33,111 nucleotides of DNA. Origin: an uncultured Alphaproteobacteria bacterium. Its GTDB lineage: Bacteria > Pseudomonadota > Alphaproteobacteria > MPNO01 > UBA830. A program made the position numbers and the translations under genes. Positions 3 to 32,696 of this stretch are shown piece after piece (the stretch's first letter is position 1; each line of letters begins with the position of its first letter). The stretch spans positions 1 through 33,111 of the forward strand of contig CAJWUK010000007.1 in assembly GCA_913047365.1 (NCBI GenBank), read 5' to 3'. The notes under the pieces were generated by a model that was not told the origin of the DNA, ran no database searches, and was given only the letters and a program-made list of their open reading frames with translations.

Positions 3-554
3 GATGCCCTGGAAGTCGATGTTTGCCATCTTGTCGGGCACTCGCTTGGCGCGATCATGGCCTGCGGCTTCACGCGAACAACGCCAGACCGGGTAGGTAG
101 CCTGTTAATCGCATCGCCCGCTTCTGGTTATGGTCCGGATGGTGAAGAAGTTCAGGCACAGCGTCGGGCAGGACGCATCAACCTGCTGGAATCACTGGGA
201 CCGGAAGGGCTTGCGCGCGAACGCCACGGCAATCTGCTCTCCGAAGATGCGCCGCAATGGGCGCGGGACCGAGTACGCGACGTGATGTCCCTCATCTGTC
301 CTGAAGGATACCGGCAGGCGGTCGAACTGTTGGTTCTCGGCGACATCAAATCCGATGCCGCCCAGATAAAACTTGCAGCAACGGTCGTCGTTGGCGGCGC
401 CGATACAGTGACACCTCCCGATGGGTGCCGGTCTGTGGCGGAGAGCTTTTCAAGTTCCAAATTCCATGTGCTGCCGGGGCTGGGCCACGCCTGCTACGTA
501 GAGGGGCCTGACGCCTTTAACGACGTTCTGTCCGACCATCTTGGCCGTCAGTAA
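3..554 (+). CDS. alpha/beta-hydrolase fold enzyme, 5' end cut by window edge
   Basis: The ORF track starts at an internal Met (57), but the frame is open to the window edge. The upstream codons read HLVGHSLGAIMA, which contains the GxSxG nucleophile elbow (GHSLG), so the gene starts outside the window. The rest of the triad is visible: Asp in VVGGADTVTPPD and His in LPGLGHACYVEGPD, the usual order and spacing for an alpha/beta hydrolase of the 3-oxoadipate enol-lactonase/carboxylesterase type. Enzymes of this family hydrolyse lactones, esters or ring-cleavage C-C bonds in the cytoplasm; the substrate cannot be read from the sequence. The stop codon overlaps the start of the IclR gene (TAATG), so it is the visible first gene of the 1-4908 operon. 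Confidence 0.88.
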   Translation, partial: DALEVDVCHLVGHSLGAIMACGFTRTTPDRVGSLLIASPASGYGPDGEEVQAQRRAGRINLLESLGPEGLARERHGNLLSEDAPQWARDRVRDVMSLICPEGYRQAVELLVLGDIKSDAAQIKLAATVVVGGADTVTPPDGCRSVAESFSSSKFHVLPGLGHACYVEGPDAFNDVLSDHLGRQ

Positions 555-1489
555 TGAGTGCCCGACCACGTAAATCGAAGGGACCCGGTTATATCGTTCC
601 AGCGTTGGAACGGGGTTTGCTGTTGCTCCAAGCATTTTCCGGCGACAAACCGGTACAGTCGTTGGGCGTTCTGGCAAAAGAACTCGACCTGCCGCGTGCC
701 ACGGCATTTCGACTGGCTAATACACTAGAGCATTTGGGGTTTCTGGTCCGCGATCCCGACAGCGGCGAATATCGGATCGGTCCCGCGGCATTGAAACTGG
801 GCTGGACTTATTTATCCGGTCTGGAGCTTCCGGAAATCGCGCATCCTTTTCTGACTTACCTTCGAAACCGGACAAACGCATCGGTTCATATGGCGGTTCG
901 GGACGGGCGCGAAATCGTTTATGTCAGCCGTCTTCCTGCCAACGCAGCACTGACCAGCAATATTCGCGTGGGATCCAGATTGCCCGCGCATGCGTCTTCC
1001 ATGGGGCGCGCCATGCTGCAGGACCTGGAAGAAGATGAGCTTTTCGGTCTTTACCGTGGTACCCGGGAACTCGCGCCGTTTTCGAAGGAAACGCCGCCCA
1101 CAGTGCCCCAGTTGCGCGATCTTTTGGTTCGCGATGCAGCGAATAATGGTGTCATCGTCAGCCGGGGCTACTACGAAAAAGGCGTGGTCAGCATCGCCGC
1201 ACCGATACGGGATGGGCGGGACCGCGTCGTCGCTGCCATAAACATAACGGCGGCATCTGACCGACTGTCTGATGAGGCACTGGAAGGGCCGGTGCGCGAA
1301 GATGTCTTGCGGACGGCACGCCAGATTTCAGAAGCTTTGGGACACGATCCGGATAGCCGCCGGACCGTGGGAATCGAACTTGCGCTGCCCAACACGGCGC
1401 TGGCGGAGCCCCGCTATAATGCGGAAGACGAACAGGGGTATCCCAAATATCAGACCCGTGACCAGCTTGAAAAAGCGGACCGACAATAA
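554..1489 (+). CDS. IclR-family transcriptional regulator
   Basis: This 311-aa protein has the IclR layout. A winged helix-turn-helix spans about residues 15-75 (VPALERGLLLLQAF, then LAKELDLPRATAFRLANTL as the recognition region). A C-terminal GAF-like effector domain follows (MAVRDGREIVYVSRL, and SRGYYEKGVVSIAAPIRDG). The LERGL.LL.AF opening resembles the PcaR/PobR branch that controls aromatic catabolism. The last 40 or so residues form a charged tail beyond the usual domain end. The ATG overlaps the hydrolase stop by one base. By family habit it probably controls this operon in response to a pathway metabolite. No operator could be identified, and the 120 bases after it contain no clear terminator. 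Confidence 0.93.
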   Translation: MSARPRKSKGPGYIVPALERGLLLLQAFSGDKPVQSLGVLAKELDLPRATAFRLANTLEHLGFLVRDPDSGEYRIGPAALKLGWTYLSGLELPEIAHPFLTYLRNRTNASVHMAVRDGREIVYVSRLPANAALTSNIRVGSRLPAHASSMGRAMLQDLEEDELFGLYRGTRELAPFSKETPPTVPQLRDLLVRDAANNGVIVSRGYYEKGVVSIAAPIRDGRDRVVAAINITAASDRLSDEALEGPVREDVLRTARQISEALGHDPDSRRTVGIELALPNTALAEPRYNAEDEQGYPKYQTRDQLEKADRQ

Positions 1490-1638: not shown

Positions 1639-2454
1639 ATGACAACAAACATGGAAAACAAGGTTGCTGCTATTACCGGTGGTTCTTCCGGTATTGGGCT
1701 GGCAACGGCGCAGGTTTTTCTGCGGACGGGGGCCAAGGTTGCTATTTGTGGTCGCAGCCAGGAACGCCTAGATGAAGCAGCAGAAGGCTTGGCAAGCATA
1801 TCGGGAAAAGAAAACGTCCTTGCTTACTCCTGCGACGTGTTGGACGAATCTGCCGTGGGAGGGTTTCAGGCGGCGGTCACCGAGCGGTTCGGCCGCTGCG
1901 ATGCCCTTGTCTGCAATGCCGGACAGGCGCGAGCGAGCTATTTTCACACCACCAGCGACCAGGACTGGCGGGACGAATTTGAACTGAAATTCTTCTCCGT
2001 GATCCGACCGGTTCGGGCTTTTGCTGATGCGCTTGAAGTATCGGGCGCCGGAGCGATTGTCTGCACCAGCGCCGGTCTCGCGCGTCGGCCGGAACCGTTT
2101 CTGATCGCGACCGGCGCAACGCGGGCCGGGCAATTAAACCTTCTGAAATCTTTGTCGATCGAATTCGCACCGCGAAACATTCGGGTCAATGCGGTATTAA
2201 TAGGATTGGTCGACTCCGGACAGTGGAGCCGCCGCTACGAAGCCGGTGAAGGCCCAGACGGCCGAGAAATTCCCGACGGCATGTCTAAAGAGGAGTGGTT
2301 CGCGGATCTGGCGAAAACGCGTCATATCCCGCTTGGGCGATTGGGAGAACCGGAGGAGGCGGCGAACGCAATTTTGTTTTTCGCATCTCCCATGTCTTCC
2401 TACATTACGGGAGAGACTATCGAGGTAGCAGGGGGGCAGGCACGCAATGTCTGA
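1639..2454 (+). CDS. SDR-family protein lacking the catalytic Tyr and Lys
   Basis: A Rossmann SDR of about 271 aa. The NAD(P)-binding motif TGGSSGIG and the structural motif CNAG (for NNAG) are intact, and the C-terminus has the usual PxxxSSYITGETIEVAGG ending. The catalytic YxxxK is not there: where YSATK is expected the sequence reads TGATR, so Tyr is Thr (about residue 158) and Lys is Arg (about 162). The upstream Ser (about 144, in CTSAG) is kept. The ORF track begins at a GTG at 1612. ATG 1639 is preferred because GGAGCGG lies about 10 bases upstream; ATG 1651 is also possible. The 3' end overlaps the next gene by 8 bases, indicating translational coupling. It may be a non-catalytic subunit or use an unusual mechanism. 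Confidence 0.9.
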   Translation: MTTNMENKVAAITGGSSGIGLATAQVFLRTGAKVAICGRSQERLDEAAEGLASISGKENVLAYSCDVLDESAVGGFQAAVTERFGRCDALVCNAGQARASYFHTTSDQDWRDEFELKFFSVIRPVRAFADALEVSGAGAIVCTSAGLARRPEPFLIATGATRAGQLNLLKSLSIEFAPRNIRVNAVLIGLVDSGQWSRRYEAGEGPDGREIPDGMSKEEWFADLAKTRHIPLGRLGEPEEAANAILFFASPMSSYITGETIEVAGGQARNV

Positions 2455-4105
2455 ACTGGTGACGGCCGGCGATGTTGCTGCCGCATTTCTGGAACGCTGT
2501 GGGGTCGAACATGCCTTCGGTGTTATCAGCATCCACAACATGCCGATCCTGGACGCTATTTCAAGGCGCAACAAGGTTACTTTTATCCCGGCCCGGTCCG
2601 AGGGCGGCGCCGTAAACATGGCCGATGCCAACGCGCGCGTGCGTGGCGGACTTGGCGTTGCGGTATCGAGCACGGGAACGGCTGCAGGAAACGCCTGTGG
2701 CGCGATTGTCGAAGCGATGACGGCGGGGACGCCGCTGCTACACCTGACCGGGCAGATCGATTCTCTACATCTGGATCGGCAGAAGGGATTTATCCATGAA
2801 GCGCCGGACCAACTCGGCATGCTCGGCGCTGCGGGCAAGGGCGCGTTCCGAGTCTGGTCCGCGGACGCTATGCTGGGCACCCTGCGGGAGGCTGTGAAGC
2901 TCGCTTTCACGCCGCCGATGGGACCGGTCAGTGTCGAGATAGCCATCGACGTACAGAAATCCAATACCGTCATGCCGGCCAGTATAGATCCGTTGCCGGT
3001 TCCGGAGTTGCCCCCGGGAGAAGATGCTGTCGATGCCCTGGCTGGCGCCCTGGCCGGCAAGAAGCGAGTGATGATGTGGCTGGGCGGCGGCGCCCGCCAT
3101 GCGGCCGACCCGGTGGCGCGTCTTGCAAATCTGGGCTTTGGTGTTGTGACCAGCGTTCAGGGCCGTGGTGTGTTGCCCGGCGACGATCAGATGTCGCTTG
3201 GGGCGTTCAATCTTCAGCCCGCAGTGGAAGAGCTTTACAAGACCTGCGATGCGATGCTGGTAGTCGGGTCACATCTGCGTTCGAATGAGACGCTTTCCTA
3301 TGCACTGTCTCTGCCGCAGCCCTTGTATCAGATCGATGCCGATCCGAAAGCGGAAGGCCGGTCCTATCCCGTCGACATGTTCGTCTGCGGGGACTCGGCG
3401 CTGACGCTGGAAATGCTGGCCGATAAGTTGAAGGCGAATTTTACGCCGGATGCCGGATTTAAAAGCGATATCCGGGAAGCGCGTGCCGCGGCTGAGGGTG
3501 GCATGCGAAAGGCGCTGGGGCCCTATAACGACGTTCTGGATGCCGTGCTCGAAACAGTGCCGCGCGATTTCGTCTGGGTACGGGATATCACGCTCTCCAA
3601 CACGATCTGGGGTAACCGCTTGCCACCGCTGGGTGGTCCCCGAGACGGGGTTCATGCCCTGGGCGGCGGGATCGGACAGGGGCTACCCATGGGTATCGGT
3701 GCGGCATTGGCCGCTCAGCGTGACGATCGCAAGACGCTGGTTCTGGCGGGTGATGGTGGGTTCGCTGTTACCTTGGGGGAACTTGCTACCGCCAAACAGG
3801 AAAATGCCGATATCGCTATTCTGTTGATGAATGACGGCGGTTACGGGGTCATAAAGAACATTGCCGATGCCCACTATAACGGCAATCGCGATTACACCGA
3901 CATTCTGGGCCCCGACTGGGGCATGCTTTGCGATTCCCTGAATATACCGCATTGGGGAGTGGCGGACGTGAAGGGCCTAGCTGAGATACTGGGACGGGCA
4001 TTCGATGCGGAAGGACCGGCGCTTGTAGAGGTGGATATGACGTCAATTGGGGATTTCGCCCAAGCCTTTGCCGGACCGCCGGCCAAAACCGGAGACGACG
4101 ACTGA
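2447..4105 (+). CDS. thiamine diphosphate-dependent enzyme (acetolactate synthase-like)
   Basis: This 552-aa protein has the three-domain architecture of the acetolactate synthase/benzoylformate decarboxylase group. The N-terminal PYR domain has the ThDP-activating Glu at about residue 52 (PARSEGGAVNMADANAR). A central Rossmann-like domain follows. The C-terminal PP domain has GDG at about 435-437, followed about 26 residues later by NDGGYG, the Mg-ThDP motif. Such enzymes decarboxylate 2-keto acids or join or split C-C bonds next to a carbonyl. The substrate cannot be assigned, and it is too divergent from biosynthetic IlvB to call it that. It overlaps the degenerate SDR upstream by 8 bases and the aspartate dehydrogenase downstream by 1 base, so the three are almost certainly one functional unit. 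Confidence 0.92.
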   Translation: MSELVTAGDVAAAFLERCGVEHAFGVISIHNMPILDAISRRNKVTFIPARSEGGAVNMADANARVRGGLGVAVSSTGTAAGNACGAIVEAMTAGTPLLHLTGQIDSLHLDRQKGFIHEAPDQLGMLGAAGKGAFRVWSADAMLGTLREAVKLAFTPPMGPVSVEIAIDVQKSNTVMPASIDPLPVPELPPGEDAVDALAGALAGKKRVMMWLGGGARHAADPVARLANLGFGVVTSVQGRGVLPGDDQMSLGAFNLQPAVEELYKTCDAMLVVGSHLRSNETLSYALSLPQPLYQIDADPKAEGRSYPVDMFVCGDSALTLEMLADKLKANFTPDAGFKSDIREARAAAEGGMRKALGPYNDVLDAVLETVPRDFVWVRDITLSNTIWGNRLPPLGGPRDGVHALGGGIGQGLPMGIGAALAAQRDDRKTLVLAGDGGFAVTLGELATAKQENADIAILLMNDGGYGVIKNIADAHYNGNRDYTDILGPDWGMLCDSLNIPHWGVADVKGLAEILGRAFDAEGPALVEVDMTSIGDFAQAFAGPPAKTGDDD

Positions 4106-4908
4106 TGAATGTTTTGCTGATCGGCTATGGCGCCATCGCCCAGGAGGTCCTGAAACATATTGGGCCAGACGGCGACGCAAGGATCACGGCGATCCTAGTG
4201 CGGACGGGCCGGGTGGAAGAGGTAAGAGCCGCGGTTTCGGACAGGGGAATAGAGGTGGTGTCGTCTTTCGACGATCTCACGGTATCGCCTAAACTGGTTG
4301 CTGAATGCGCTGGACATAATGGGGTGCGGGAATACGGCGCCGACGCGTTACGCCGCGGCATGGATTTTCTGGTGATTTCCATTGGCGTGCTAGCAGACAC
4401 TGCTCTCTATGAAGAACTTCTGGCGGCTGCGAAAGAGGGCGGGGCAAAACTGGTGCTCGCCGCCGGGGCCGTTGCCGGCGCTGATGCGTTGGCCGCCGCC
4501 CGTGTCGGCGGACTGTCGAAGGTCACCTATACATCCCGGAAGCCTCCCGGCGCCTGGAAGGGAACGCCGGCGGAAGAGGTATGCGATCTCGATGCGTTGG
4601 AAACCGAAACGGCGTTGTATGAAGGCGGCGCGGACGAAGCAGCGACGCGCTATCCGCAGAATGCTAATGTAGCCGCTACCATTGCCCTGGCGGGGGCAGG
4701 GTTCGGCGACACCAAGGTCCGGCTCGTGGCTGATCCTGAAGCCGGCGGAAATATCCACCAGGTCCATGCAGAAGGGATGTTTGGCGCTGTCGATATCGAA
4801 ATCCGGGGCAAGCCGCTGCCGGATAATCCCAAGACGTCAACTCTTGCCGCACATTCGGTGGTTGCGGAAATCCGTCGCCGCGCCGCGCCGGTGGAGATCG
4901 GCGGCTAG
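4105..4908 (+). CDS. nadX: L-aspartate dehydrogenase (NadX/AspDH family)
   Basis: A 267-aa NAD(P)-dependent dehydrogenase. The N-terminal Rossmann motif is LIGYGAIAQEV. Family hallmarks follow: ECAGHNGVREYG, LAAGAVAGADALAAAR, YTSRKPPGAWKGTPAE, and NIHQVHAEG containing the conserved His at about residue 218. The family oxidises L-aspartate to iminoaspartate, which becomes oxaloacetate plus ammonia, or runs the reverse reductive amination. In organisms that lack NadB it supplies NAD synthesis. No nadA or nadC is adjacent. The TGATG overlap ties it instead to a ThDP enzyme, an SDR and a hydrolase, so a catabolic role in aspartate or related amino-acid turnover is more likely (inference). It is the last gene of the operon. 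Confidence 0.9.
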   Translation: MNVLLIGYGAIAQEVLKHIGPDGDARITAILVRTGRVEEVRAAVSDRGIEVVSSFDDLTVSPKLVAECAGHNGVREYGADALRRGMDFLVISIGVLADTALYEELLAAAKEGGAKLVLAAGAVAGADALAAARVGGLSKVTYTSRKPPGAWKGTPAEEVCDLDALETETALYEGGADEAATRYPQNANVAATIALAGAGFGDTKVRLVADPEAGGNIHQVHAEGMFGAVDIEIRGKPLPDNPKTSTLAAHSVVAEIRRRAAPVEIGG

Positions 4909-5118: not shown

Positions 5119-5745
5119 ATGGCATCCCCCGACCGCACCGGAGAAACTCCCAAACAACTGACTGAGATCGGCGCGCTACCGATCCCCGATCCGGGTACAC
5201 TGGACGAGGATCTGCAGAAATACATGCAAATCTGCGAAGACAAGCTGGGCCACATTCCGAACGTCGTGAAGGTGTTTTCGCTGCGGCCTGCAAAGCTGCG
5301 CACGTTCATCGCCAAATACAACGAGATGATGCTGTCGGATGAAACCGATCTTTCGCGGCTGGAACGCGAGATGATCGCGGTGGTCGTGTCTTGCGCAAAT
5401 CGGTGCGTCTACTGCATCACATCCCACAGCCAGGCAGTGCGCGAATTTTCGGGCGATCCAGTGCTCGGCGATATCCTGATGGTGAATTACCGTGAAGCGA
5501 ATTTGACGCCGCGTCAGCGCGCCATGCTCGACCACGCCTGGAAAATAACGACCGCCCCGGGCGAAACCGGCGAGGCTGACCGCCAGGCTCTCGCGGATGC
5601 CGGGCTCAGCCCGGAGGAAATTTTCGACGTCAACGACGTGATCGCCTATTTCAACTATACCAACCGCATGACCCACGGCCTGGGCATGCAGCCGAACGAA
5701 TACTACTTTGGCCGCAACCGCCTCCCCGACCCGGAGGGGGGATAA
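5119..5745 (+). CDS. AhpD-like/CMD-family peroxidase-related protein
   Basis: This 208-aa protein belongs to the carboxymuconolactone decarboxylase/AhpD superfamily, 'uncharacterised peroxidase-related' subgroup. The redox motif is intact: CANRCVYCITSHSQA, giving C96-x2-C99-x3-H103, the AhpD-type CxxC...H site. Upstream are LGHIPNVVKVFSLRP and the helix LERE, both typical of the subgroup. The family reduces peroxides with thiols or acts in redox protection in the cytoplasm; the actual substrate is unknown for most members. The ATG at 5119 follows an A-rich stretch containing AAAGAGA. It stands alone between the AspDH operon and the chaperonin gene. A short GC hairpin (CGGGG/CCCCG, about 5752-5768) follows the stop. 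Confidence 0.87.
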   Translation: MASPDRTGETPKQLTEIGALPIPDPGTLDEDLQKYMQICEDKLGHIPNVVKVFSLRPAKLRTFIAKYNEMMLSDETDLSRLEREMIAVVVSCANRCVYCITSHSQAVREFSGDPVLGDILMVNYREANLTPRQRAMLDHAWKITTAPGETGEADRQALADAGLSPEEIFDVNDVIAYFNYTNRMTHGLGMQPNEYYFGRNRLPDPEGG

Positions 5746-5866: not shown

Positions 5867-7546
5867 ATGGCACCTGTTTTCATAAAACTCGGGCTGGATG
5901 CGAAGCAGGCAATGATGCGGGGTGCCGACCTTCTGGCGGATTCCGTCGCGCTAACACTGGGGCCCGCAGGACGTTGCGTGTTGATTGAGGCCCAGGGCGG
6001 CGGGCTACGGGCGCCGCGGATCACCAAGGACGGTGTCACCGTGGCCGACGCGCTGGAGGTCGACGGGCGGTTGGAGAAGATGGGTCTGCGGCTGATGCGG
6101 CGAGCCGCTCAGCGCATAGGCGAAGATATCGGCGACGGCACCACCACCACCATCGTACTGGCCCGGGCGCTGGCGGCAGAGGGGTTGAAAGCGATCGCTA
6201 CCGGGATCGATCCAATGTCGTTGCGTCGCGAACTCGATGCAGGTGTCGCTGACGTTACGTCGGAATTGCGGAGGATGGCGAAACCGGTGCAGGGTCGTTC
6301 GGATTTCGAGCGGGTCGCGACCATTTCCGCCAACGGCGAAGAATTCCTCGGCAGAATGATTGCCGACGCGTTTGATACGGTCGGCGCGGACGGCGTTGTT
6401 TCCGTCGAAGGTGGCGAAGCGCTGGCGACCACGTGGGAGTGCGTGACTGGCCTGCAATGGGATGGCGGGTACGTTTCCCCCTATTTCATGACCGATCCGA
6501 TCACCACTGAATGCCGTTACGACAATCCGCTGATCCTGCTGACCGAACACATATTGGAAGATCATACGTCGCTGCTAAAAGTGATGGAAACCGCGGTGCA
6601 GGCGCGTCGGCCACTGTTTATCGTCGCCGAGGCGGTAAAGGGCGAGGCACTGCAGACCTTGACCGTGAATAAGGTGCGCAAAGGACTGCGAGTGGTGGCG
6701 GGGAAAGGACCGCTGTTTGGTGAACGCCGCCGCGCTATGCTGGAAGACACCGCGACTGTGATCGGCGGGGCGCTGATATCCGAACATCGGGGTGACAATC
6801 TGGAAATTATCGACCCGGCGGCGCTCGGCGGCGCGGAGCGCATTGTACTGACCAAAGACCGGACTACCATCATAGGTGGTGCCGGAAAACAAGTGAATAT
6901 CGACAGGCGTGTCGAGGGCATCCGGGCTGAACAAGGACTTGAGAGCAATACGCCGTTTCAGGAAAAGAACTTGCGCGAACGCCTGGCACGGCTGACCGGC
7001 GGGGTAGTTGTCGTCCGCGCCGGTGGCGGTAGCAAGATGGAGATCACCGAACGCCGGGACCGCGCGGAGGATGCCGCCGGCGCGGTGCGGGCTGCGGCAA
7101 TAGACGGTATTTTGCCTGGTGGCGGGTCGTCCTATATCCATGCAGCCCGCGAGATTTCAGAAGGGAACACGACGGAGACACGGGCGGCAATGCGTATTCT
7201 TCGAACGGCGCTGAACGCACCTGCGGCGCAGATCGCCGCCAACGCTGGGTATGACGGACGCATGGTCACGGCGCGATTGTCGGAAGAGGGGAAAGTCAAT
7301 CGCGGCTTCAACGCGCTGACCGGAGACTTCACCGATTTGATTAAGGCCGGCGTAATTGATCCAGCCCGGGTGGCGATATCGGCGCTGGAAGCCGCCATGT
7401 CCGTGGCGGGACTGTTTCTGACCATTGAAACCGTTATCGCAAAACCGCCACCCCCGCCGCGCCCCTCACGGGCCGATGACATCCCCTTCGGGCCGGAAGC
7501 CAAGGATATGACTGCCGAGGAAGCGGGCGAGTTCGGGCTGGTCTAG
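5867..7546 (+). CDS. divergent GroEL-type chaperonin paralog, no adjacent groES
   Basis: A full-length 559-aa group I chaperonin. ATPase elements are present: TLGPAGR, TKDGVTVAD, GDGTTTTIVLA (about residues 89-99), the Asp in RAEDAAGAVRAA that corresponds to GroEL D398, GILPGGG, and GVIDPARV (about D498). The apical domain keeps GYVSPYF, equivalent to the GroEL Y199/Y203/F204 substrate and GroES-binding patch. LVVN of helix I has become LTVN, so V263 is replaced by Thr. The C-terminal GGM tail is missing; the protein ends EEAGEFGLV. An in-frame TAA at 5855 rules out a start upstream of it, so ATG 5867 is used; the nearest SD, GGAGGGGGA, is rather far away (about 18 bases). No CIRCE element and no groES were found. 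It is likely a specialised second copy rather than the housekeeping GroEL. Confidence 0.93.
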   Translation: MAPVFIKLGLDAKQAMMRGADLLADSVALTLGPAGRCVLIEAQGGGLRAPRITKDGVTVADALEVDGRLEKMGLRLMRRAAQRIGEDIGDGTTTTIVLARALAAEGLKAIATGIDPMSLRRELDAGVADVTSELRRMAKPVQGRSDFERVATISANGEEFLGRMIADAFDTVGADGVVSVEGGEALATTWECVTGLQWDGGYVSPYFMTDPITTECRYDNPLILLTEHILEDHTSLLKVMETAVQARRPLFIVAEAVKGEALQTLTVNKVRKGLRVVAGKGPLFGERRRAMLEDTATVIGGALISEHRGDNLEIIDPAALGGAERIVLTKDRTTIIGGAGKQVNIDRRVEGIRAEQGLESNTPFQEKNLRERLARLTGGVVVVRAGGGSKMEITERRDRAEDAAGAVRAAAIDGILPGGGSSYIHAAREISEGNTTETRAAMRILRTALNAPAAQIAANAGYDGRMVTARLSEEGKVNRGFNALTGDFTDLIKAGVIDPARVAISALEAAMSVAGLFLTIETVIAKPPPPPRPSRADDIPFGPEAKDMTAEEAGEFGLV

Positions 7547-15629: not shown

Positions 15630-16934
15630 CTATGCGCTCATCAGGTCGCGCCACGCGGCATACTGCGCACGTAGCGGCAATTCGCTGGTACCGACCTCAC
15701 CGATTTCGCCTCCATCGTCATGGGCGATGTCGTGATCCAGTCCCCGCGAAAGATAAATCCATTCCGAGTCCGCCTCGTCCAACGCCTGCTGAATACCGTT
15801 GAACATGGCGATGTCATCGGTCGTGATCTGGGATGCCGGCGAATTAAGGGCGCTGAGAAACCGGACACTGCGCTGATACATCTCTTCCGGCGCGCCTCGG
15901 AGGCGGAAACACATGGAATGCACGATGGTGCAGTCCACGGCGACCGGCTGCAAAAGACGCATCTGTTGATGCTTTGGGTTCAGGATCAGGTTGGGGTAGA
16001 CCAGATGGTTGAAAGTATCCCACCCCATGATGTTTTCGGCGCGGTTCTCCCCATAGGCGCCGATCATCGCTGATCGATAGCTGGAGTTGATGGGGTCTTC
16101 GTCGGTTGTTTGGGTTATCGGCCCTTCCTTGTAAAAGCCACCCATATAGGAATGACCGCCGGGGAAACCGTGAATTTCCACCTTATCCATCATCTCGAGC
16201 GGCAGGCCGTTGCCCTTGAACATCTGCAACGCGTGATCTTCTGCGCCATCCGCCAGATCATCCGCGACGGCCTGGGCGCTATCGACCGACGACGCATGGA
16301 CGATGGAGGCATGCATAAGGTCGTTGGCATTCTCCATATGGAGTTTCCAGTTGCCGCGATAGCGCTGGCGAAACCCGCCGCCGGTCATCTCAATTTCTCC
16401 GGACGGCGCTCGGTCGACCATATTGTCAATTGCCCGCGTCATGGGGCCGAGATAGTCGGCAAGGGAAGGCCCGTCCGTGGCTCGGCTGGCGAAGACAAAG
16501 CCGCGATAGCTCTCTACATGCGGAACCCGATCCAGGCCAAGCGCCGGGTCCTTCGGATCCAGCTTGCCATTGTAGCCCTTGCCGTGCGGAATACCGATCA
16601 GGGATCCGTCGGTTGAGAATGCCCAGCCGTGATACGGGCAGACGAACCGTTTTTTTGATCCGCGCCGCGCAGAACAGACTTTCATGCCGCGATGGGTGCA
16701 CCGGTTTGCAAAAACGTGAATCTCGTCATCGGTATGGCGGGCGACAATGACCGGCCGGTCGCCCATATGGGCGGTAACGAACGCACCAGCTCCCTCCAGT
16801 TGGCTTTCGTGGGCGACGTATAGCCAGGCGTGGCCGTAGATTCGTTCCATTTCGGCCGCAAAAATGTCCGGGTCTGTGTAGACTCTTCGGTGAACGCGGC
16901 CTTCGGGCGCCAACATTTCGAATGGTTCTGTCAT
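15630..16934 (-). CDS. Rieske ring-hydroxylating oxygenase, alpha subunit
   Basis: A 434-aa terminal oxygenase. The Rieske [2Fe-2S] ligands are complete: CTHRGMKVCSARRG then FVCPYHGW (CxH...CxxH). The mononuclear iron site reads ENANDLMHASIVH, giving the bridging Asp and two His. The C-terminal domain matches the RHO alpha-subunit catalytic fold. These enzymes hydroxylate or O/N-demethylate aromatic and related compounds using electrons from a reductase. No reductase, ferredoxin or beta subunit is present in the window, so it must borrow electrons from elsewhere. It is the first gene of the Rieske-VOC operon. Confidence 0.94.
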   Translation of the reverse strand: MTEPFEMLAPEGRVHRRVYTDPDIFAAEMERIYGHAWLYVAHESQLEGAGAFVTAHMGDRPVIVARHTDDEIHVFANRCTHRGMKVCSARRGSKKRFVCPYHGWAFSTDGSLIGIPHGKGYNGKLDPKDPALGLDRVPHVESYRGFVFASRATDGPSLADYLGPMTRAIDNMVDRAPSGEIEMTGGGFRQRYRGNWKLHMENANDLMHASIVHASSVDSAQAVADDLADGAEDHALQMFKGNGLPLEMMDKVEIHGFPGGHSYMGGFYKEGPITQTTDEDPINSSYRSAMIGAYGENRAENIMGWDTFNHLVYPNLILNPKHQQMRLLQPVAVDCTIVHSMCFRLRGAPEEMYQRSVRFLSALNSPASQITTDDIAMFNGIQQALDEADSEWIYLSRGLDHDIAHDDGGEIGEVGTSELPLRAQYAAWRDLMSA

Positions 16935-18178: not shown

Positions 18179-18266
18179 GCGTCGGAGAATTTTACAAATT
18201 TCGACTGGATTGCGCTGGCATATCCTCCCACTTGATCCACGCATCACGCCGCGCGACATTCCCTAT

Positions 18267-19370
18267 ATGGCATCGGTAAGAAAATTCACTCGCAATAAGC
18301 TGGCCATCGGGCTGTTCGGGTCGAACTGCGATGGAGGTCTCGCCTGTTCCACCTTTCCGGAGCGTTGGGAAGCAAGCTGGGAAAACTGCCGCGACCTGGC
18401 AGTCCGGGCAGACGGTGCCGGCCTCGACTTCATGCTGCCGCTGGGGCGTTGGATCGGCTATGGCGGCGACACCAACCACAACGGATCCAATTTTGAGACG
18501 ATTGCCTGGGCCTGCGGCATCCTCGCGGCGACGCGCAACATAATGGCGTTCGGCACCGTGCATGTGACCGCGCATTCACCCGCAGTGGCGGCGAAGCAGA
18601 TGGTGACGGCGGATCACATCGGCGGCGGCAGGTTCGGACTCAACATCGTGTGCGGCTGGTACCAGAAGGAATTCGACATGCTAGGCGTGGACCTGGACGA
18701 GCATGAACGCCGCTACGACCTAGGTCAGGAATGGATAGATCTGGTGACGCGTATCTGGTCTGAAGACGAACCATTCGATTTTAACGGCGAATTTTTCCAG
18801 ACGAGAGGAACGGTTCTGGGTCCGAAGCCAGTAAACCGCGAACGGCCCATGCTGGCCTGTGCGGGTACGTCCGGCCGTGGTCGTGAATTCGCCGTAAAAA
18901 ACGCCGATATGCTTTTCCACACCTTCTACGATTTCGACAAGTTTCGTGAAGATTGCTCCAGCCTGCGCCAGGCAGGGCGGGATATCGGCCGTGATGTGGG
19001 CCTCTTCACGAATATCGGAATTGTCTGCCGCCCGACGCGTAAGGAAGCGGAGGAATACCATCACTATTACGCGGTCGAACACGCGGATACGGAAGCGTGC
19101 CGCATCATGATGGTCGAACGCGGCATAGATACGGATCAGATTTCAGAGGAAGACCGCCGCGGGTTCCATCTTCGTGCCGCGACGGCCAACGGTGCAACCC
19201 CCGTGGTTGGCGACCCCGACAGCGTGGCCGAGCAGTTGATGCAGATGTCCGACGCCGGGTGCGACGCCGTTGCGGTGGGTTTGCCGAATTACTTGAACGA
19301 TCTGCCCATCCTGGTGGAAGAGGTGTTGCCGCGTCTGGCATCGGAGGGCTACCGTACGACGGTCAGTTGA
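18267..19370 (+). CDS. LLM-class flavin-dependent monooxygenase
   Basis: A luciferase-like TIM-barrel protein of about 367 aa (386 from the TTG used in the track). ATG 18267 (MASVRKFTRNKLAIGLFGSN) begins just before the first beta strand. Family features are GLDFMLPLGRW, FETIAWACGILAATRNI, HIGGGRFGLNIVCGWYQKE, HERRYDLGQEWIDLVTRIW and the substrate loop FNGEFFQTRG. The pattern is closest to the SsuD/RutA/DmoA group, which uses FMNH2 and O2 to cleave C-S, C-N or ring bonds. Use of F420 cannot be excluded, since cofGH and npdG are in the same window, but the motifs favour FMN. The 88 bases upstream contain no obvious SD. Confidence 0.9.
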   Translation: MASVRKFTRNKLAIGLFGSNCDGGLACSTFPERWEASWENCRDLAVRADGAGLDFMLPLGRWIGYGGDTNHNGSNFETIAWACGILAATRNIMAFGTVHVTAHSPAVAAKQMVTADHIGGGRFGLNIVCGWYQKEFDMLGVDLDEHERRYDLGQEWIDLVTRIWSEDEPFDFNGEFFQTRGTVLGPKPVNRERPMLACAGTSGRGREFAVKNADMLFHTFYDFDKFREDCSSLRQAGRDIGRDVGLFTNIGIVCRPTRKEAEEYHHYYAVEHADTEACRIMMVERGIDTDQISEEDRRGFHLRAATANGATPVVGDPDSVAEQLMQMSDAGCDAVAVGLPNYLNDLPILVEEVLPRLASEGYRTTVS

Positions 19371-22503: not shown

Positions 22504-22622
22504 TTCACGAAACTGCGCAGACCCCGGTGGCCTGTCAATGAGGCGGATCGCCATCGGGATTTGCCGACATTGCGCTGTTGCGGTGTGCGCGCTATGCCCA
22601 ACGACGTGAAGGGGCAGGAGAA

Positions 22623-24224
22623 ATGAACAACGCCGAATTGATCGTCCAGATTCTGAAACGGGCCGGCACCACGCATGGTTTTGGCATTCCCAGCGGCAAT
22701 GTGTTGCCGCTGATGGACGCCATGCGAAAACACGATCTGCCCTTTGTACTGACCGCGCATGAAGGGTCTGCCGGGTTTGCGGCCGATGTGATGGGCCGGA
22801 TGACCGGCGCGCCCGGATTTGCCCTCGCGACACTGGGGCCGGGGGCGACAAACCTAGCCACCGGCGTGGGCGATGCCTGGCTCGACAGGTCGCCGATGAT
22901 CGCTGTCACCTGCAACCTGAATACGGATCAGCTCGGGCGCCGAATCCAGATGTATATCGACCATCACCAGCTTTTTGCGCCCATTACTAAGGCAACGCTG
23001 CCTTTGCGCGAAGGAACGGTGGCTGAAACGGTCGCCGAAGCAATCCGTCTTTCGTTGTCCGAACCCATGGGGCCCGTGCATCTGGATCTTCCTGAAAACG
23101 TGGCGGTTGCGCCCGCGACCGAGGAAATTCCTGACCTGGCGGCGCCCTCCCGGTTTGCGCGGCCGGATGGGGCAGAAATCGCGGCAGGGCTTGAGATCCT
23201 CGCTGCGGCCAAAAAACCCGTCGCGGTTCTGGGCTCCAACGCCATGCGAGTAATTGATCCAGATCTTGTCCGCGCTTTGATTGACCGCCACGCCCTGCCA
23301 TTCGCCACCACGACCATGGCCAAGGGCTTGATCGACGAAGATCATCCGTTTTCCGTCGGCTGCATTGAACGCGGCAAACGGCAGATGCAGCGGGATTTCC
23401 TGCGCAGCGCCGATCTGATCGTCGGGATCGGCTACGATACCATCGAGGTCGAATACGAGGCCTGGATCCGCGCCACGCCCCTGCTACAGATTGATATCGA
23501 AAAGGTCGATGCGGCGGCATCGGTGGATGTGCGGGCGGAGGTGACCGGCGACCTAGATGCATCCCTCGGCGCTTTCGTTAATGCCGGCCCTATCTCCAAC
23601 GACTGGACGGACTTGGATATTGCTGCTCACCGGACGGCCTATCAGGCGGCGCTGCGGCCCGACGTCGAGACGTTCGCGCCCCATCATGCTATCGATATTG
23701 TGCGTGACGTGTTGCCGGCGGACGGCATTCTGACCTTCGATGTCGGCGCCCACACGCATCAGATCGCGGGCCAGTGGACGGCACATGCTCCGAAACAGTT
23801 TCATATCACCAATGGCTGGTCGTCGATGGGGTTCGGTCTGCCATCCGCCATCGCCGCCAAGCTAGCGCGGCCGGATTTGCCCGTTGTGTGTATCCTGGGT
23901 GACGGGTGTTTTCAGATGACCTGCGGCGAACTGGCCACGGCCAAACGCCTGGGAATCTGCCTGCCCGTCGTCGTGCTGGACGACCGCTGGCTCGGCCTGA
24001 TCCGGGTCAAGCAGGAACGCCGCCAGTTTCCGATTTACGGTACGGCGCTACAGGAAGAGGAATACCGTGATCCGCCGGAACATTATTTCGGGGTGACAGC
24101 TATCGGCGCCCGCGACGGAGATGCCCTACGGGCCGCATTGACCGATGCATTGGGGGCTTCCGGGCCGACGGTGATCGAGGCGGTGGTCGATGCCGGGCAC
24201 TATTCCGACACGGTCTTTGACTGA
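22623..24224 (+). CDS. thiamine diphosphate-dependent enzyme 2, variant PP motif
   Basis: A 533-aa enzyme of the acetolactate synthase/decarboxylase family. ATG 22623 follows CAGGAGAA (good SD), so the track's longer start at 22578 is not used. The PYR-domain Glu is about residue 47 (TAHEGSAGFAADVMGR), and the PP-domain GDG is at about 426-428 (ILGDGCFQMT). After GDG the usual NN or ND pair that binds Mg-ThDP is replaced by DD (VVLDDRWLGLIRVKQ). It is divergent from a DASS anion transporter and 50 bases upstream of a cupin, suggesting a carboxylate or sulfonate pathway (inference). It is not a close copy of the ThDP enzyme at 2447. Confidence 0.9.
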   Translation: MNNAELIVQILKRAGTTHGFGIPSGNVLPLMDAMRKHDLPFVLTAHEGSAGFAADVMGRMTGAPGFALATLGPGATNLATGVGDAWLDRSPMIAVTCNLNTDQLGRRIQMYIDHHQLFAPITKATLPLREGTVAETVAEAIRLSLSEPMGPVHLDLPENVAVAPATEEIPDLAAPSRFARPDGAEIAAGLEILAAAKKPVAVLGSNAMRVIDPDLVRALIDRHALPFATTTMAKGLIDEDHPFSVGCIERGKRQMQRDFLRSADLIVGIGYDTIEVEYEAWIRATPLLQIDIEKVDAAASVDVRAEVTGDLDASLGAFVNAGPISNDWTDLDIAAHRTAYQAALRPDVETFAPHHAIDIVRDVLPADGILTFDVGAHTHQIAGQWTAHAPKQFHITNGWSSMGFGLPSAIAAKLARPDLPVVCILGDGCFQMTCGELATAKRLGICLPVVVLDDRWLGLIRVKQERRQFPIYGTALQEEEYRDPPEHYFGVTAIGARDGDALRAALTDALGASGPTVIEAVVDAGHYSDTVFD

Positions 24225-25161: not shown

Positions 25162-26001
25162 CTAGCTTGCGGCTTCCAGCGCTATCAGACCCATGCCCGT
25201 GGTCATGGGGGCGTAATAGTGACGGTGTACCTGTCTGACCGGGCCTTCGATGGCGCCACGCATGGTTAGCCACATGATCAGCTCGACCGCCTCGGCGCCC
25301 GCTTCTTCCATGATCTGTTGATGGGTCATTGCCGTGAGAGCCGCCGGATCGGACTCGATCTTGTCGAGAAAATCGTTATCGAATTGGGAATTCAGGTAGC
25401 CGAACCGCGCGCCGTTCAACTGGTGGGACATACCGCCGGTGCCCAAGATAACGACTTTCCTATCTTTGCCGTAGCTTTCAGCAGCCCGGCGAATTGCCTG
25501 GCCCAGCTTCCAGCAACGCGCGGCCGTCGGCAGCGGATGCTGGATAACGTTGACCGCTACCGGCACCACTTGGACAGGCCAGCCGTCATCGTGGTCCCAG
25601 CACAGATGCATGGGGACCATAAATCCGTGCTCTACTTCCATTTCCTGGCACACGGTGATGTCGAATTCGTCGTAAACCAAAGAGTTGCAGAGGTGCCAGG
25701 AGAAGTCTGCATCTCCCGGAAAATCGGGTAGGGGGCGGCGTCCCCAACCTTCGTCGCCGACCGGATAGGTCTCGGCCGCGCCCACGGCGAAGGTCGGATA
25801 TTTGTCGAAAAAGAAATCACATCCATGATCGTTATAGACCACGATGGCGATGTCAGGCTGGATCTCTTTCAGCCATTCCTTAACCGGACCGTACCCGTCG
25901 AACAGGGGTTTCCAATCCGGTTCTTCCTGACGGCCCTGGTCGTAGGCGACCCCGATGGACGGAACGTGGGAGGTGCCGATACCGGCAACAATTTTTGCCA
26001 T
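25162..26001 (-). CDS. ligB: protocatechuate 4,5-dioxygenase beta subunit (LigB type)
   Basis: This 279-aa class III extradiol dioxygenase has the normal LigB length. Iron ligands are in place: His12 in GIGTSHVPSIG, His59 in VVYNDHGCDFF, and the Glu in the EAGAEAVELIMW region. The catalytic-type His is in GTGGMSHQLNG. With LigA it opens protocatechuate between C4 and C5 to 4-carboxy-2-hydroxymuconate semialdehyde; gallate or a substituted catechol could also be the substrate. A textbook SD (AGGAGGAAAG) precedes ATG 26001. It lies 13 bases after ligA and is followed by the pobA relic. The downstream ligC, ligI and ligJ genes are not in the window. Confidence 0.93.
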   Translation of the reverse strand: MAKIVAGIGTSHVPSIGVAYDQGRQEEPDWKPLFDGYGPVKEWLKEIQPDIAIVVYNDHGCDFFFDKYPTFAVGAAETYPVGDEGWGRRPLPDFPGDADFSWHLCNSLVYDEFDITVCQEMEVEHGFMVPMHLCWDHDDGWPVQVVPVAVNVIQHPLPTAARCWKLGQAIRRAAESYGKDRKVVILGTGGMSHQLNGARFGYLNSQFDNDFLDKIESDPAALTAMTHQQIMEEAGAEAVELIMWLTMRGAIEGPVRQVHRHYYAPMTTGMGLIALEAAS

Positions 26002-29562: not shown

Positions 29563-29697
29563 AATTAAATAATCTGTGCTGCTCTTGACCCCCGCCGGGA
29601 TTCACCGTTTGCTGTAACAGCATCAAGGTCGCGTATTGCAACGCCAATGCGGTCGGCGGCAACCCTGTAATTTTAACCGTTGATACTATCGACCCGG

Positions 29698-32040
29698 ATG
29701 ACTTCGACCGACAGTTTGAGAGAAGCCATGACATCTGCACGCCTGCTGCGTGACGAGGGTTTCGGTGATCTTGTTACCTACAGCCCCAAGGTATTCATCC
29801 CGCTGACCAAACTGTGCCGCGATGTCTGTCACTATTGCACCTTTGCTCATCCGCCACGACGCGGAGAACGGGCATTCATGACGGTGGAAGAAATTCTGGA
29901 CATCGCGCGGGAAGGGGCGAAGGCCGGCTGCACGGAAGCGTTGTTCACCCTGGGCGACAAGCCGGAGCTTCGCTACCGCATGGTGCGGGAGGAACTTGCC
30001 GCGCTCGGGCATGAGACCACGATTGCTTACTTGGCGGAGATGGCGGGACTGGTTCTGAATGAAACCGGGCTACTACCACATCTGAATCCAGGCGTCATGA
30101 CGGCGGAGGACATTGCGCTATTGAGGCCAGTGTCGGCCTCGATGGGTCTGATGCTGGAAGGGGTGTCGCCTGTGCTTATGAAGCGCGGCGGGCCGCATTA
30201 TGGATCGCCTGACAAGGACCCGGTGGCGCGTTTGGAAACTATTCGCCTCGCCGGAGAGGCGAAGGTGCCATTTACCACCGGGATTTTGATTGGCATCGGG
30301 GAGACGCCGGACGAGCGCCGCGCTGCGCTAGAAAATATCGCGGAACTACAAGCGCGCTATGGCCACATCCAGGAAATCATTATTCAGAACTTTCGCGCCA
30401 AGACCGGCACTCGCATGGGCGGCGCGCCGGAACCCGGTCTTGACGATCTCTGTCAAACGATTGCCGATGCGCGGTCTGTGTTCGGGGCGGAAATGTCCAT
30501 TCAGGCACCGCCAAACCTCAGTGGTGATGATTTCCCCGCCCTTCTGGATGCCGGAATCAACGACTGGGGCGGCGTGTCGCCGGTGACGCCGGATCACATA
30601 AATCCGGAGGCCGCGTGGCCGGAACGGGAACGTCTGCGTGTTGGCACGGAAAGCGGCGGCAAAGTGCTGGCGGCCCGCCTACCGGTCTATTCACGTTATA
30701 TCTTCGAAGATGGCTGGTTGGACCATGCGGTGCGTCCGGCGGTACTGCGCGTCATGGATCAGGACGGTCTCGCCCGGGACGATTTCTGGGCGCCGGGTGT
30801 GCCGGATGTTGATCCGGTATTTCCCGCTGTAAGTGGCGGCAAGGCGCGGGCACTTATGGGTGTATTGTCGCGAGCCGCGGCGGGGACGCATCTGGAAGAA
30901 ACGGACCTGGCATTACTGTTTAGTGCACGTGGAGAGGCATTTGGCGAGGTTACAGCCGCCGCCGACGAGCTGCGAAAAAAAATGTGCGGCGATACTATCA
31001 CCTACGCGGTAAACCGAAATATAAATTACACAAATGTGTGCGGATATCGCTGCGGGTTCTGTGCCTTCTCAAAGGGGCGGCTGAGCGCAAATCTGCGCGG
31101 GTCGCCCTACGATCTCGCCCTGGAAGAAATTTCCCGGCGGGCCACAGAGGCTTGGGAACGGGGTGCGACGGAAGTCTGCCTCCAGGGCGGCATTCACCCC
31201 GACTATACCGGCGATACCTATCTGTCGATCGTCCGAGTAGTGAAAGACGCTGCTCCTGAAATGCATATCCATGCGTTTTCGCCTTTGGAGATTTCACAGG
31301 GGGCCACGACCCTGGGTCTGACGGTAGAGGCCTATCTGGGGCGCCTGAAAGACGCGGGGCTAGGATCGCTGCCCGGTACTGCGGCTGAAATTCTGGATGA
31401 CGATGTCCGCGCGATCCTGTGCGCTGACAAACTGTCCACCGATGAATGGCTGGCGGTGATGGAAACCGCCCACGGGATTGGGTTGCGGTCGACCGCGACG
31501 ATAATGTTCGGTCATCTGGAACGTCCGGTTCATCTGGCTCGGCACCTCCTGCGGGTGCGTTGTCTTCAGGAACGGACTGGAGGATTTACGGAATTCGTGC
31601 CGTTGCCCTTTGTCCACATGGAAGCACCAATTTATCTGAAGGGCTTGGCGCGGCGCGGCCCCACCTTTCGTGAAGCGATCCTGATGCACGCGGTGGCGCG
31701 GCTGGCGCTGTACCCCGTCATTGCCAATATCCAAACAAGCTGGGTCAAGCTGGGCCGGGACGGTGCGGCGGCCTGCCTTCGTGCCGGCGCCAGTGATCTG
31801 GGCGGCACACTGATGAACGAATCCATCTCCCGGGCAGCAGGCGCATCCCACGGACAGGAATTCGACCCAGTCGGCATAGGAGATTTTATCCGAGGGTTGG
31901 GGCGTTCGCCGCGTCAGAGGTCCACCCTTTACAACAATGTTGTCGATGAACGCCGGGCGGCGGGCATGGCTGCGCCCAAACTGCAGCCCATGATCCAAAC
32001 ACCCGCGAACAAATATGCCCATGGGGAAGCTGCTGAATGA
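29698..32040 (+). CDS. cofGH: FO synthase, fused CofG-CofH (FbiC type)
   Basis: A protein of about 780 aa with two radical-SAM domains in FbiC order. The CofG half has CRDVCHYC (C40, C44, C47), preceded by VFIPLTKL. The CofH half has CGYRCGFC (C448, C452, C455), preceded by NRNINYTNV. Together they make 7,8-didemethyl-8-hydroxy-5-deazariboflavin (FO), the F420 chromophore, from tyrosine and a pyrimidine precursor using SAM. Both [4Fe-4S] motifs and the following barrel motifs are intact. ATG 29698 is chosen over the track's 29680, although its SD is weak. Its stop overlaps npdG (ATGA). F420 is patchy in proteobacteria and usually horizontally acquired. cofC, cofD and cofE are not in the window. 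Confidence 0.95.
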   Translation: MTSTDSLREAMTSARLLRDEGFGDLVTYSPKVFIPLTKLCRDVCHYCTFAHPPRRGERAFMTVEEILDIAREGAKAGCTEALFTLGDKPELRYRMVREELAALGHETTIAYLAEMAGLVLNETGLLPHLNPGVMTAEDIALLRPVSASMGLMLEGVSPVLMKRGGPHYGSPDKDPVARLETIRLAGEAKVPFTTGILIGIGETPDERRAALENIAELQARYGHIQEIIIQNFRAKTGTRMGGAPEPGLDDLCQTIADARSVFGAEMSIQAPPNLSGDDFPALLDAGINDWGGVSPVTPDHINPEAAWPERERLRVGTESGGKVLAARLPVYSRYIFEDGWLDHAVRPAVLRVMDQDGLARDDFWAPGVPDVDPVFPAVSGGKARALMGVLSRAAAGTHLEETDLALLFSARGEAFGEVTAAADELRKKMCGDTITYAVNRNINYTNVCGYRCGFCAFSKGRLSANLRGSPYDLALEEISRRATEAWERGATEVCLQGGIHPDYTGDTYLSIVRVVKDAAPEMHIHAFSPLEISQGATTLGLTVEAYLGRLKDAGLGSLPGTAAEILDDDVRAILCADKLSTDEWLAVMETAHGIGLRSTATIMFGHLERPVHLARHLLRVRCLQERTGGFTEFVPLPFVHMEAPIYLKGLARRGPTFREAILMHAVARLALYPVIANIQTSWVKLGRDGAAACLRAGASDLGGTLMNESISRAAGASHGQEFDPVGIGDFIRGLGRSPRQRSTLYNNVVDERRAAGMAAPKLQPMIQTPANKYAHGEAAE

Positions 32041-32696
32041 CCGAATATCTGCCCACTATTGCGGTACTTGGTGGAACAGGGGCGGAAGGATCCGGTCTAG
32101 CCATGCGCTGGGCGCAAGCTGGATACCGTGTGCTGATAGGGTCCCGGTCGGCGGAGAAAGCAGCAGAGTTCGCCGCGGAAATAGGTGCAGAAGGCATGGG
32201 TAATGCCGAAGCCGCCGCTGGATGCGACATCGCCGTCCTGACCGTGCCTTATTCCGCGCAGCGCCCGACGCTCTCCGATCTGAAGGACGCCCTGCAGGGA
32301 AAAATTCTGGTCGACGTCACAGTACCGCTGGTGCCGCCGAAGGTGATGCGGGTGCAATTACCGGAAGAAGGCAGCGCCGCCCAGATCGCTCAAACGGTCC
32401 TAGGCGACAGCGTGCGTGTGGTGTCGGCGTTTCAGAATGTTTCTGCCGGACACCTGAAAGATCCGGATCACGTAATAGATTGCGACGTTCTGATAACCGG
32501 GGACGATCCTACCGCCCGTGAAGAGGTGGTGCGGCTGGCCAAAGCCGCCGGCCTGGTGGCAATCGAAGCAGGCCCTCTGGACAACGCCGTTGCGGCTGAG
32601 GCTCTGACGTCACTGCTGATCTGGATAAACCGGAAATACAAATCGCCGGGGGCAGGAATCCGGATTACTGCGCTGCCGCACGATCCGCCGATTTAA
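32037..32696 (+). CDS. npdG: F420:NADPH oxidoreductase (Fno/NpdG family)
   Basis: This 219-aa protein has the FNO Rossmann start IAVLGGTGAEGSGLAMRWA, then the NADP-binding VLIGSRSAEKA, CDIAVLTVPYSAQ, KILVDVTVPLVPP, and VVSAFQNVSAGHL. These match NADPH-dependent F420 reductase, which passes hydride between NADPH and F420 and so charges the cofactor made by the upstream gene. ATG 32037 overlaps the cofGH stop. The end is followed by a good intrinsic terminator. Its pairing with cofGH strongly supports functional F420 metabolism in this organism. Confidence 0.93.
   Translation: MTEYLPTIAVLGGTGAEGSGLAMRWAQAGYRVLIGSRSAEKAAEFAAEIGAEGMGNAEAAAGCDIAVLTVPYSAQRPTLSDLKDALQGKILVDVTVPLVPPKVMRVQLPEEGSAAQIAQTVLGDSVRVVSAFQNVSAGHLKDPDHVIDCDVLITGDDPTAREEVVRLAKAAGLVAIEAGPLDNAVAAEALTSLLIWINRKYKSPGAGIRITALPHDPPI

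Follow-up and report, generated by a model that had tools for sequence, protein, structure and literature searches.

A short-chain dehydrogenase, thiamine diphosphate enzyme and aspartate dehydrogenase gene unit in an alphaproteobacterium: probably the lower part of a conserved Rieske-initiated catabolic cluster

The window analysed here, contig C7, is 33,111 bases long and belongs to an alphaproteobacterial metagenome-assembled genome (MAG) of 3.03 Mb in 342 contigs. At its left end it carries, on the plus strand, the 3' part of an alpha/beta hydrolase gene, a gene for an IclR-family regulator, and genes for a short-chain dehydrogenase/reductase (SDR; here SDRa), a thiamine diphosphate (ThDP)-dependent enzyme and an aspartate dehydrogenase (AspDH), in that order (Table 1). 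As the initial annotation had noted, the reading frames of the last three genes overlap, by 8 bases between SDRa and the ThDP enzyme and by one base, within TGATG, between the ThDP enzyme and AspDH; the hydrolase TAA and the IclR ATG also share one base, at position 554. Their position behind a hydrolase and an IclR regulator is likewise confirmed, the hydrolase being present as its 3' part only because the contig begins within the gene.

The remainder of this gene lies on another contig of the same genome, C136 (7,280 bases), which was located via its orthologue of a sister-genome cupin and whose last 55 bases are identical to the first 55 of the window. Joining the two restores a single open frame of 268 residues with a GHSLG nucleophile motif. 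Besides the 5' part of the hydrolase gene, C136 holds HTH62 and, on the strand of the unit, genes for a Rieske oxygenase, a second SDR (SDRb) and a cupin. The cluster order in this lineage is HTH62-Rieske-SDRb-cupin-hydrolase-IclR-SDRa-ThDP-AspDH, contiguous across the join, and the left edge of the window is an assembly break, not a cluster boundary. From this overlap and gene content, SDRa-ThDP-AspDH is therefore the lower half of a larger, Rieske-led cluster, to which most relatives add an aldehyde dehydrogenase (ALDH) and an extradiol dioxygenase. The three genes do look catabolic, in line with the initial interpretation, but their reading as a stand-alone pathway is not supported.

Table 1. 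Genes of the cluster and other features on the window and on contig C136
Feature	Contig	Position	Strand	Basis
Alpha/beta hydrolase (PcaD-like), 3' part only; 5' part on contig G000:C136 (L200 6973-end)	window	3-554	+	contig join
IclR-family regulator, PcaR/PobR subfamily-like but below that family's cut-off	window	554-1489	+	profile match
SDR (SDRa), family PRK07062/NF005468, K117-A145-T158-R162 centre	window	1639-2454	+	profile match, alignment
ThDP-dependent enzyme, PRK07064/NF005470, acetolactate-synthase/decarboxylase superfamily	window	2447-4105	+	profile match, motifs
AspDH, NAD_binding_3 + Asp_DH_C, GxGxxA cofactor loop, NPKTS motif	window	4105-4908	+	profile match, motifs
AhpD/CMD-type peroxidase-related protein; cluster membership doubtful	window	5119-5745	+	3' of unit in relative L090 only
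Divergent GroEL-like chaperonin	window	5867-7546		
Rieske ring-hydroxylating alpha subunit	window	15630-16934		
Luciferase-like monooxygenase	window	18210-19370		
Second ThDP enzyme	window	22578-24224		
LigB-type ring-opening dioxygenase	window	25162-26001		
Fused FO-synthase-like radical SAM protein, then F420-dependent NADP oxidoreductase	window	29680-32696		
Rieske oxygenase	C136	4538-5593		
SDRb (second SDR)	C136	5612-6370		
Cupin	C136	6386-6952		

Related loci were sought in 385 evenly sampled genomes of the class, in 31 relatives, in a scan of genome contigs and in plasmid records. The ThDP family (NF005470) was found in 32 of the 385 class genomes and 20 of the 31 relatives; the contig scan contributed 80 named loci, chosen as the best ThDP matches, and plasmid records held annotated clusters from Caballeronia, Klebsiella, Acinetobacter, Pseudosulfitobacter, Nitratireductor, Vibrio and Novosphingobium. 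About 110 related loci with this layout were obtained, one from an Eremiobacterota MAG and the others from alpha-, beta- and gammaproteobacteria, with marine alphaproteobacteria, Klebsiella and Acinetobacter among the hosts; they often also encode a transporter, an ALDH and a VOC dioxygenase of the extradiol type. The association of the three families, for which the initial annotation had suggested a genome search, is widespread, and loci across the proteobacterial classes rule out that it is unique to this genome.

Within the ThDP family, 113 core loci form a clade associated with the cluster, and a separate group of 18 loci has almost no cluster neighbours. Near the ThDP gene of the core loci we counted hydrolase (106), cupin (100), IclR (100), AspDH (96), SDRa (94), Rieske (91), SDRb (88), ALDH (79) and VOC (66) genes; these counts are lower bounds because contig ends cut many loci, and some loci (at least four) were fetched twice via two collections. 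An unbiased clustering of the neighbourhood genes was partly swamped by antisense shadow reading frames. The frequency of IclR supports the earlier inclusion of the regulator in the unit. Among the 79 fetched loci holding all three genes, SDRa, ThDP and AspDH follow one another in that order on one strand in 75, with a median distance of 3 bases from the ThDP stop to the AspDH reading frame.

At the level of whole genomes in the even class sample, an Asp_DH_C protein is present in all 12 genomes with a cluster-type ThDP enzyme, against 80 of 353 genomes with no NF005470 protein (p = 4e-8), and its gene adjoins the cluster-type ThDP gene in 8 of the 12. Since genomes with the other, non-cluster ThDP clade are also enriched (15 of 20), part of this association may reflect genome size or lifestyle. 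Distance matrices correlate with that of the ThDP enzyme at 0.95 for ALDH, 0.92 for AspDH and IclR, 0.90 for SDRa, 0.89 for VOC, 0.85 for cupin and 0.60 for Rieske, none of these seven values being reached in 200 permutations (0/200). Gene order and genome co-occurrence thus agree with the original proposal in treating the three genes as one functional unit, here found to be conserved.

The ThDP enzyme matches NF005470/PRK07064 with 776 bits (cut-off 495) and has intact cofactor motifs, with invariant E52, GDGG 435-438, N462 and an FGVISIHN motif. Its closest named match comes from Alphaproteobacteria bacterium UBA830 (82% identity), and its AlphaFold model (pLDDT 88) retrieves generic matches of the acetohydroxyacid synthase type; the solved structures listed share about 19-26% identity with it. 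It has the three-domain fold and cofactor motifs of acetolactate synthase, 2-ketoarginine decarboxylase (AruI-type, PRK07524) and cyclohexane-1,2-dione hydrolase, but falls far under the cut-offs of all named families of ThDP decarboxylases and carboligases; no functionally named NCBIfam family reaches its cut-off. By score it fits neither acetolactate synthase (TIGR00118, 169 bits against a cut-off of 538) nor 5-guanidino-2-oxopentanoate decarboxylase of the AruI type (NF005712, 233 bits against 500), the latter being the highest scorer among the functionally named relatives.

SDRa belongs to NF005468/PRK07062 (352 bits, cut-off 266) and lacks the classical N-S-Y-K tetrad. In all 92 orthologues K replaces N and R replaces K; the tyrosine position holds T in 90 and S in 2, and the serine position is S or A, with A145 in the window protein. 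The nearest solved structure, 3lf1/3lf2 (Q9HYA2, 254 bits), is a short-chain oxidoreductase of Pseudomonas aeruginosa with no assigned function, in which T-x-x-x-R replaces Y-x-x-x-K at the aligned site, as in SDRa; the corresponding publication reportedly describes an 'atypical catalytic center'. The enzyme had been called apparently non-catalytic. An atypical K-S/A-T/S-R centre kept in 92 of 92 orthologues argues instead for altered chemistry rather than loss of function.

AspDH scores 319 bits against NF009828 (cut-off 177), has both PF03447 and PF01958 domains and aligns with A. fulgidus AspDH 2dc1 at 106 bits. The catalytic-domain residues N216, H218, N241, K243, T244 and S245 are conserved at 95% or more among 95 cluster members, and both the N241-P-K-T-S motif and the GxGxxA cofactor loop are retained. 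Two characterised enzymes, KpnAspDH and PaeAspDH (P. aeruginosa; EC 1.4.1.21), are of the same family and share this loop; PaeAspDH is presumably the product of the P. aeruginosa cluster gene PA3505, and both have been studied for biotechnology only, with no pathway assigned. The protein ends given by the published KpnAspDH primers, MKKVMLIGY... and ...CRELA*, agree with those of protein P0005 of locus L099, which identifies the enzyme as the AspDH of the cluster in Klebsiella. The purified enzyme is an aspartate dehydrogenase, with relative activities of 100 on L-Asp, 5.5 on L-Glu and <1 on L-Ala, and of 100 on oxaloacetate, 3.9 on pyruvate and 3.5 on 2-oxoglutarate; its GxGxxA loop goes with a preference for NADPH (PMC5554190). 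KpnAspDH is, among the few substrates tried, specific for aspartate and oxaloacetate, and the window enzyme is predicted to have the same aspartate dehydrogenase activity.

Residues are also conserved in the partner proteins: SDRb keeps a canonical Y-x-x-x-K in 87 of 87 sequences, the VOC protein encoded in relatives has retained the H-H-E triad of extradiol-type enzymes (H154, H213, E264), and Rieske and cupin residues are conserved. The cupin model (pLDDT 72) matches generic cupins, including quercetinase and oxalate oxidase, and assigns no function. In the Caballeronia plasmid pNK84, the same types of ThDP, VOC and Rieske genes lie beside a molybdenum hydroxylase. Molybdenum hydroxylases often act on N-heteroaromatics. 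In Acinetobacter baumannii, A1S_0956-0958 (AspDH-ALDH-ThDP) are induced together on mucin (PMC5757984). The plasmid arrangement and this co-induction support an N-containing aromatic substrate, although they do not identify the compound.

Taken together, the three genes are probably the lower part of a conserved, IclR-associated and Rieske-initiated catabolic cluster for an aromatic acid that would likely contain nitrogen, in which the ThDP enzyme would decarboxylate a 2-oxo acid and AspDH release nitrogen. The Rieske oxygenase and SDRb would oxidise the aromatic or heteroaromatic acid; the ring may be opened and trimmed by the cupin, the hydrolase and a ring-cleaving enzyme, which is an extradiol-type VOC protein in those loci that encode one, and SDRa may reduce or rearrange an intermediate. 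The ThDP enzyme would decarboxylate or cleave a 2-oxo acid to an aldehyde, to be oxidised by ALDH where this is encoded, and AspDH would deaminate aspartate or, alternatively, reduce an iminosuccinate-like fragment holding the ring nitrogen. A comparable dismantling of an N-heteroaromatic by a ThDP decarboxylase, Rieske and extradiol dioxygenases and hydrolases is encoded by the Lum cluster for lumichrome and riboflavin in Nocardioides simplex; it differs in its two-subunit ThDP enzyme, alpha/beta Rieske oxygenase and P450, and no IclR-SDR-ThDP-AspDH block is described there (PMC12746152). The riboflavin/lumichrome pathway was rejected here because its ThDP and Rieske architecture differs.

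Several observations weigh against this proposal. The correlations with the ThDP enzyme stem partly from shared species history. Nitrogen in the substrate rests mainly on AspDH itself, and some complete clusters have no AspDH, so that nitrogen release by this enzyme is not obligatory. AspDH is not next to the ThDP gene in five otherwise rich clusters (L108, L109, L116, L122 and L138), and the Klebsiella and Acinetobacter clusters run AspDH-ALDH-ThDP instead of ThDP-AspDH. VOC and ALDH genes are absent from the cluster of this genome, whose sole VOC candidate is a 40% relative located elsewhere. In the open-licence literature we found no substrate, product or mutant phenotype for the cluster and no pathway paper for Rieske plus AspDH, homarine or kynurenate clusters; for the P. 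aeruginosa and A. baumannii loci it offers expression notes only, and overall it provides expression data and enzymology, but no pathway.

The 40% VOC relative also occurs in five relatives, in four of them beside a molybdenum hydroxylase. At a second locus conserved in relatives (L202, L204-L207; VOC alone in L201) an extradiol-type VOC gene adjoins a three-subunit molybdenum hydroxylase, and L202 also has CobW, luciferase-like monooxygenase, UbiD and amidase genes; it looks like another heteroaromatic catabolic operon.

Could the substrate be kynurenate, or a close relative, in a quinoline-type breakdown of tryptophan? The Rieske enzyme would be the 7,8-dioxygenase, SDRb the dihydrodiol dehydrogenase, VOC the 8,8a-dioxygenase and SDRa a C=C reductase; the ThDP enzyme would decarboxylate 5-(3-carboxy-3-oxopropyl)-4,6-dihydroxypicolinate, ALDH oxidise the aldehyde, the hydrolase and cupin open the pyridine ring, and AspDH serve the amino-acid end with release of nitrogen. 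This gene list fits the classical biochemical steps (work of Hayaishi and Taniuchi), and the Rieske, VOC (with its intact iron triad), ThDP and ALDH proteins co-evolve. The quinoline pathway has long been known and, to our knowledge, is genetically unassigned; the open literature yielded no genes for the kynurenate route. However, this genome has no tryptophan 2,3-dioxygenase gene and none is visible near the clusters, which were not inspected contig by contig; the enzyme is found in 40 of 53 genomes searched, which is uninformative on a link to kynurenine. VOC and ALDH, present in 66 and 79 of the 113 core loci, are both missing from this lineage's cluster. Moreover, P. aeruginosa, the source of the closest solved SDR, secretes kynurenate, with levels of up to 100 uM when kynU is mutated (PMC4938989). 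We regard this assignment as unlikely; if true, it would place quinoline pathway genes across soil, ocean and human-associated proteobacteria.

The route originally envisaged appears quite unlikely. In it, AspDH or a version of relaxed specificity would oxidise an amino acid to a 2-oxo acid that passes straight to the ThDP enzyme for decarboxylation, just as 2-ketoarginine decarboxylase acts on the product of a transaminase. This route would account for the tight gene overlap, the ThDP-AspDH correlation, the top rank of the 5-guanidino-2-oxopentanoate decarboxylase family, albeit below cut-off, and the ALDH gene that often follows. Yet the specificity of KpnAspDH, which acts only slightly on Glu, Ala, pyruvate or 2-oxoglutarate, speaks against it, and the Rieske, cupin, hydrolase and SDR genes are left unexplained. 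The hand-over is further weakened by the five rich clusters in which the ThDP gene has no adjacent AspDH, and by loci of one family, f2 (L060-L062, L089 and L091), where a heme-oxygenase-like gene (PF14518/TENA_THI-4) directly follows the ThDP gene in the place of AspDH, and AspDH-family genes sit elsewhere in the genome where checked. AspDH is therefore not an obligatory neighbour of the ThDP enzyme, and its lack in several otherwise complete clusters means that direct feeding does not follow from the gene arrangement.

That AspDH is a NadX-type enzyme supplying iminoaspartate for NAD, placed here by chance, is very improbable: it has Asp_DH_C family membership and automatic annotations of NAD biosynthesis in its favour, but nadA (TIGR00550) has no match in this genome or in 11 relatives, of which 6 reach at least 90% completeness at low contamination, whereas control genomes do match, order and co-evolution with the ThDP enzyme are kept across classes, and a second Asp_DH_C-family protein is encoded elsewhere in the genome (G000:C104:8272-8535, L003). 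The nadA result makes a role of the operon AspDH in de novo NAD synthesis unlikely, in agreement with the initial annotation. Across the lineage as sampled, nadA is missing in all 12 genomes, while nadC is kept in this one.

Other genes of the window deserve mention. Shortly 3' of the unit, and in the same position in two relatives of the family (L086 and L090), is a divergent GroEL-like chaperonin of 559 amino acids (220 bits to Cpn60_TCP1) with no GGM tail. Further downstream are other aromatic-catabolism-like genes, for a Rieske alpha subunit, a luciferase-like monooxygenase, a second ThDP enzyme and a LigB-type dioxygenase. Near the right end, the FO-synthase-like protein (786 amino acids, CofH_C) and the F420-dependent oxidoreductase suggest use of F420 in this alphaproteobacterium.

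The Rieske-led cluster thus emerges as a set of about ten catabolic genes that spans the proteobacterial classes and is found in common soil genera as well as in Klebsiella and Acinetobacter, with no substrate assigned in the open literature, even though enzymology or a crystal structure has been published for two of its proteins, with no pathway attached. Assigning AspDH and the atypical SDRa to a probably Rieske-initiated pathway would replace the misleading annotations 'NAD biosynthesis' and 'acetolactate synthase' with catabolic roles that can be tested, and would restrict the search for a substrate to aromatic acids, probably N-containing.

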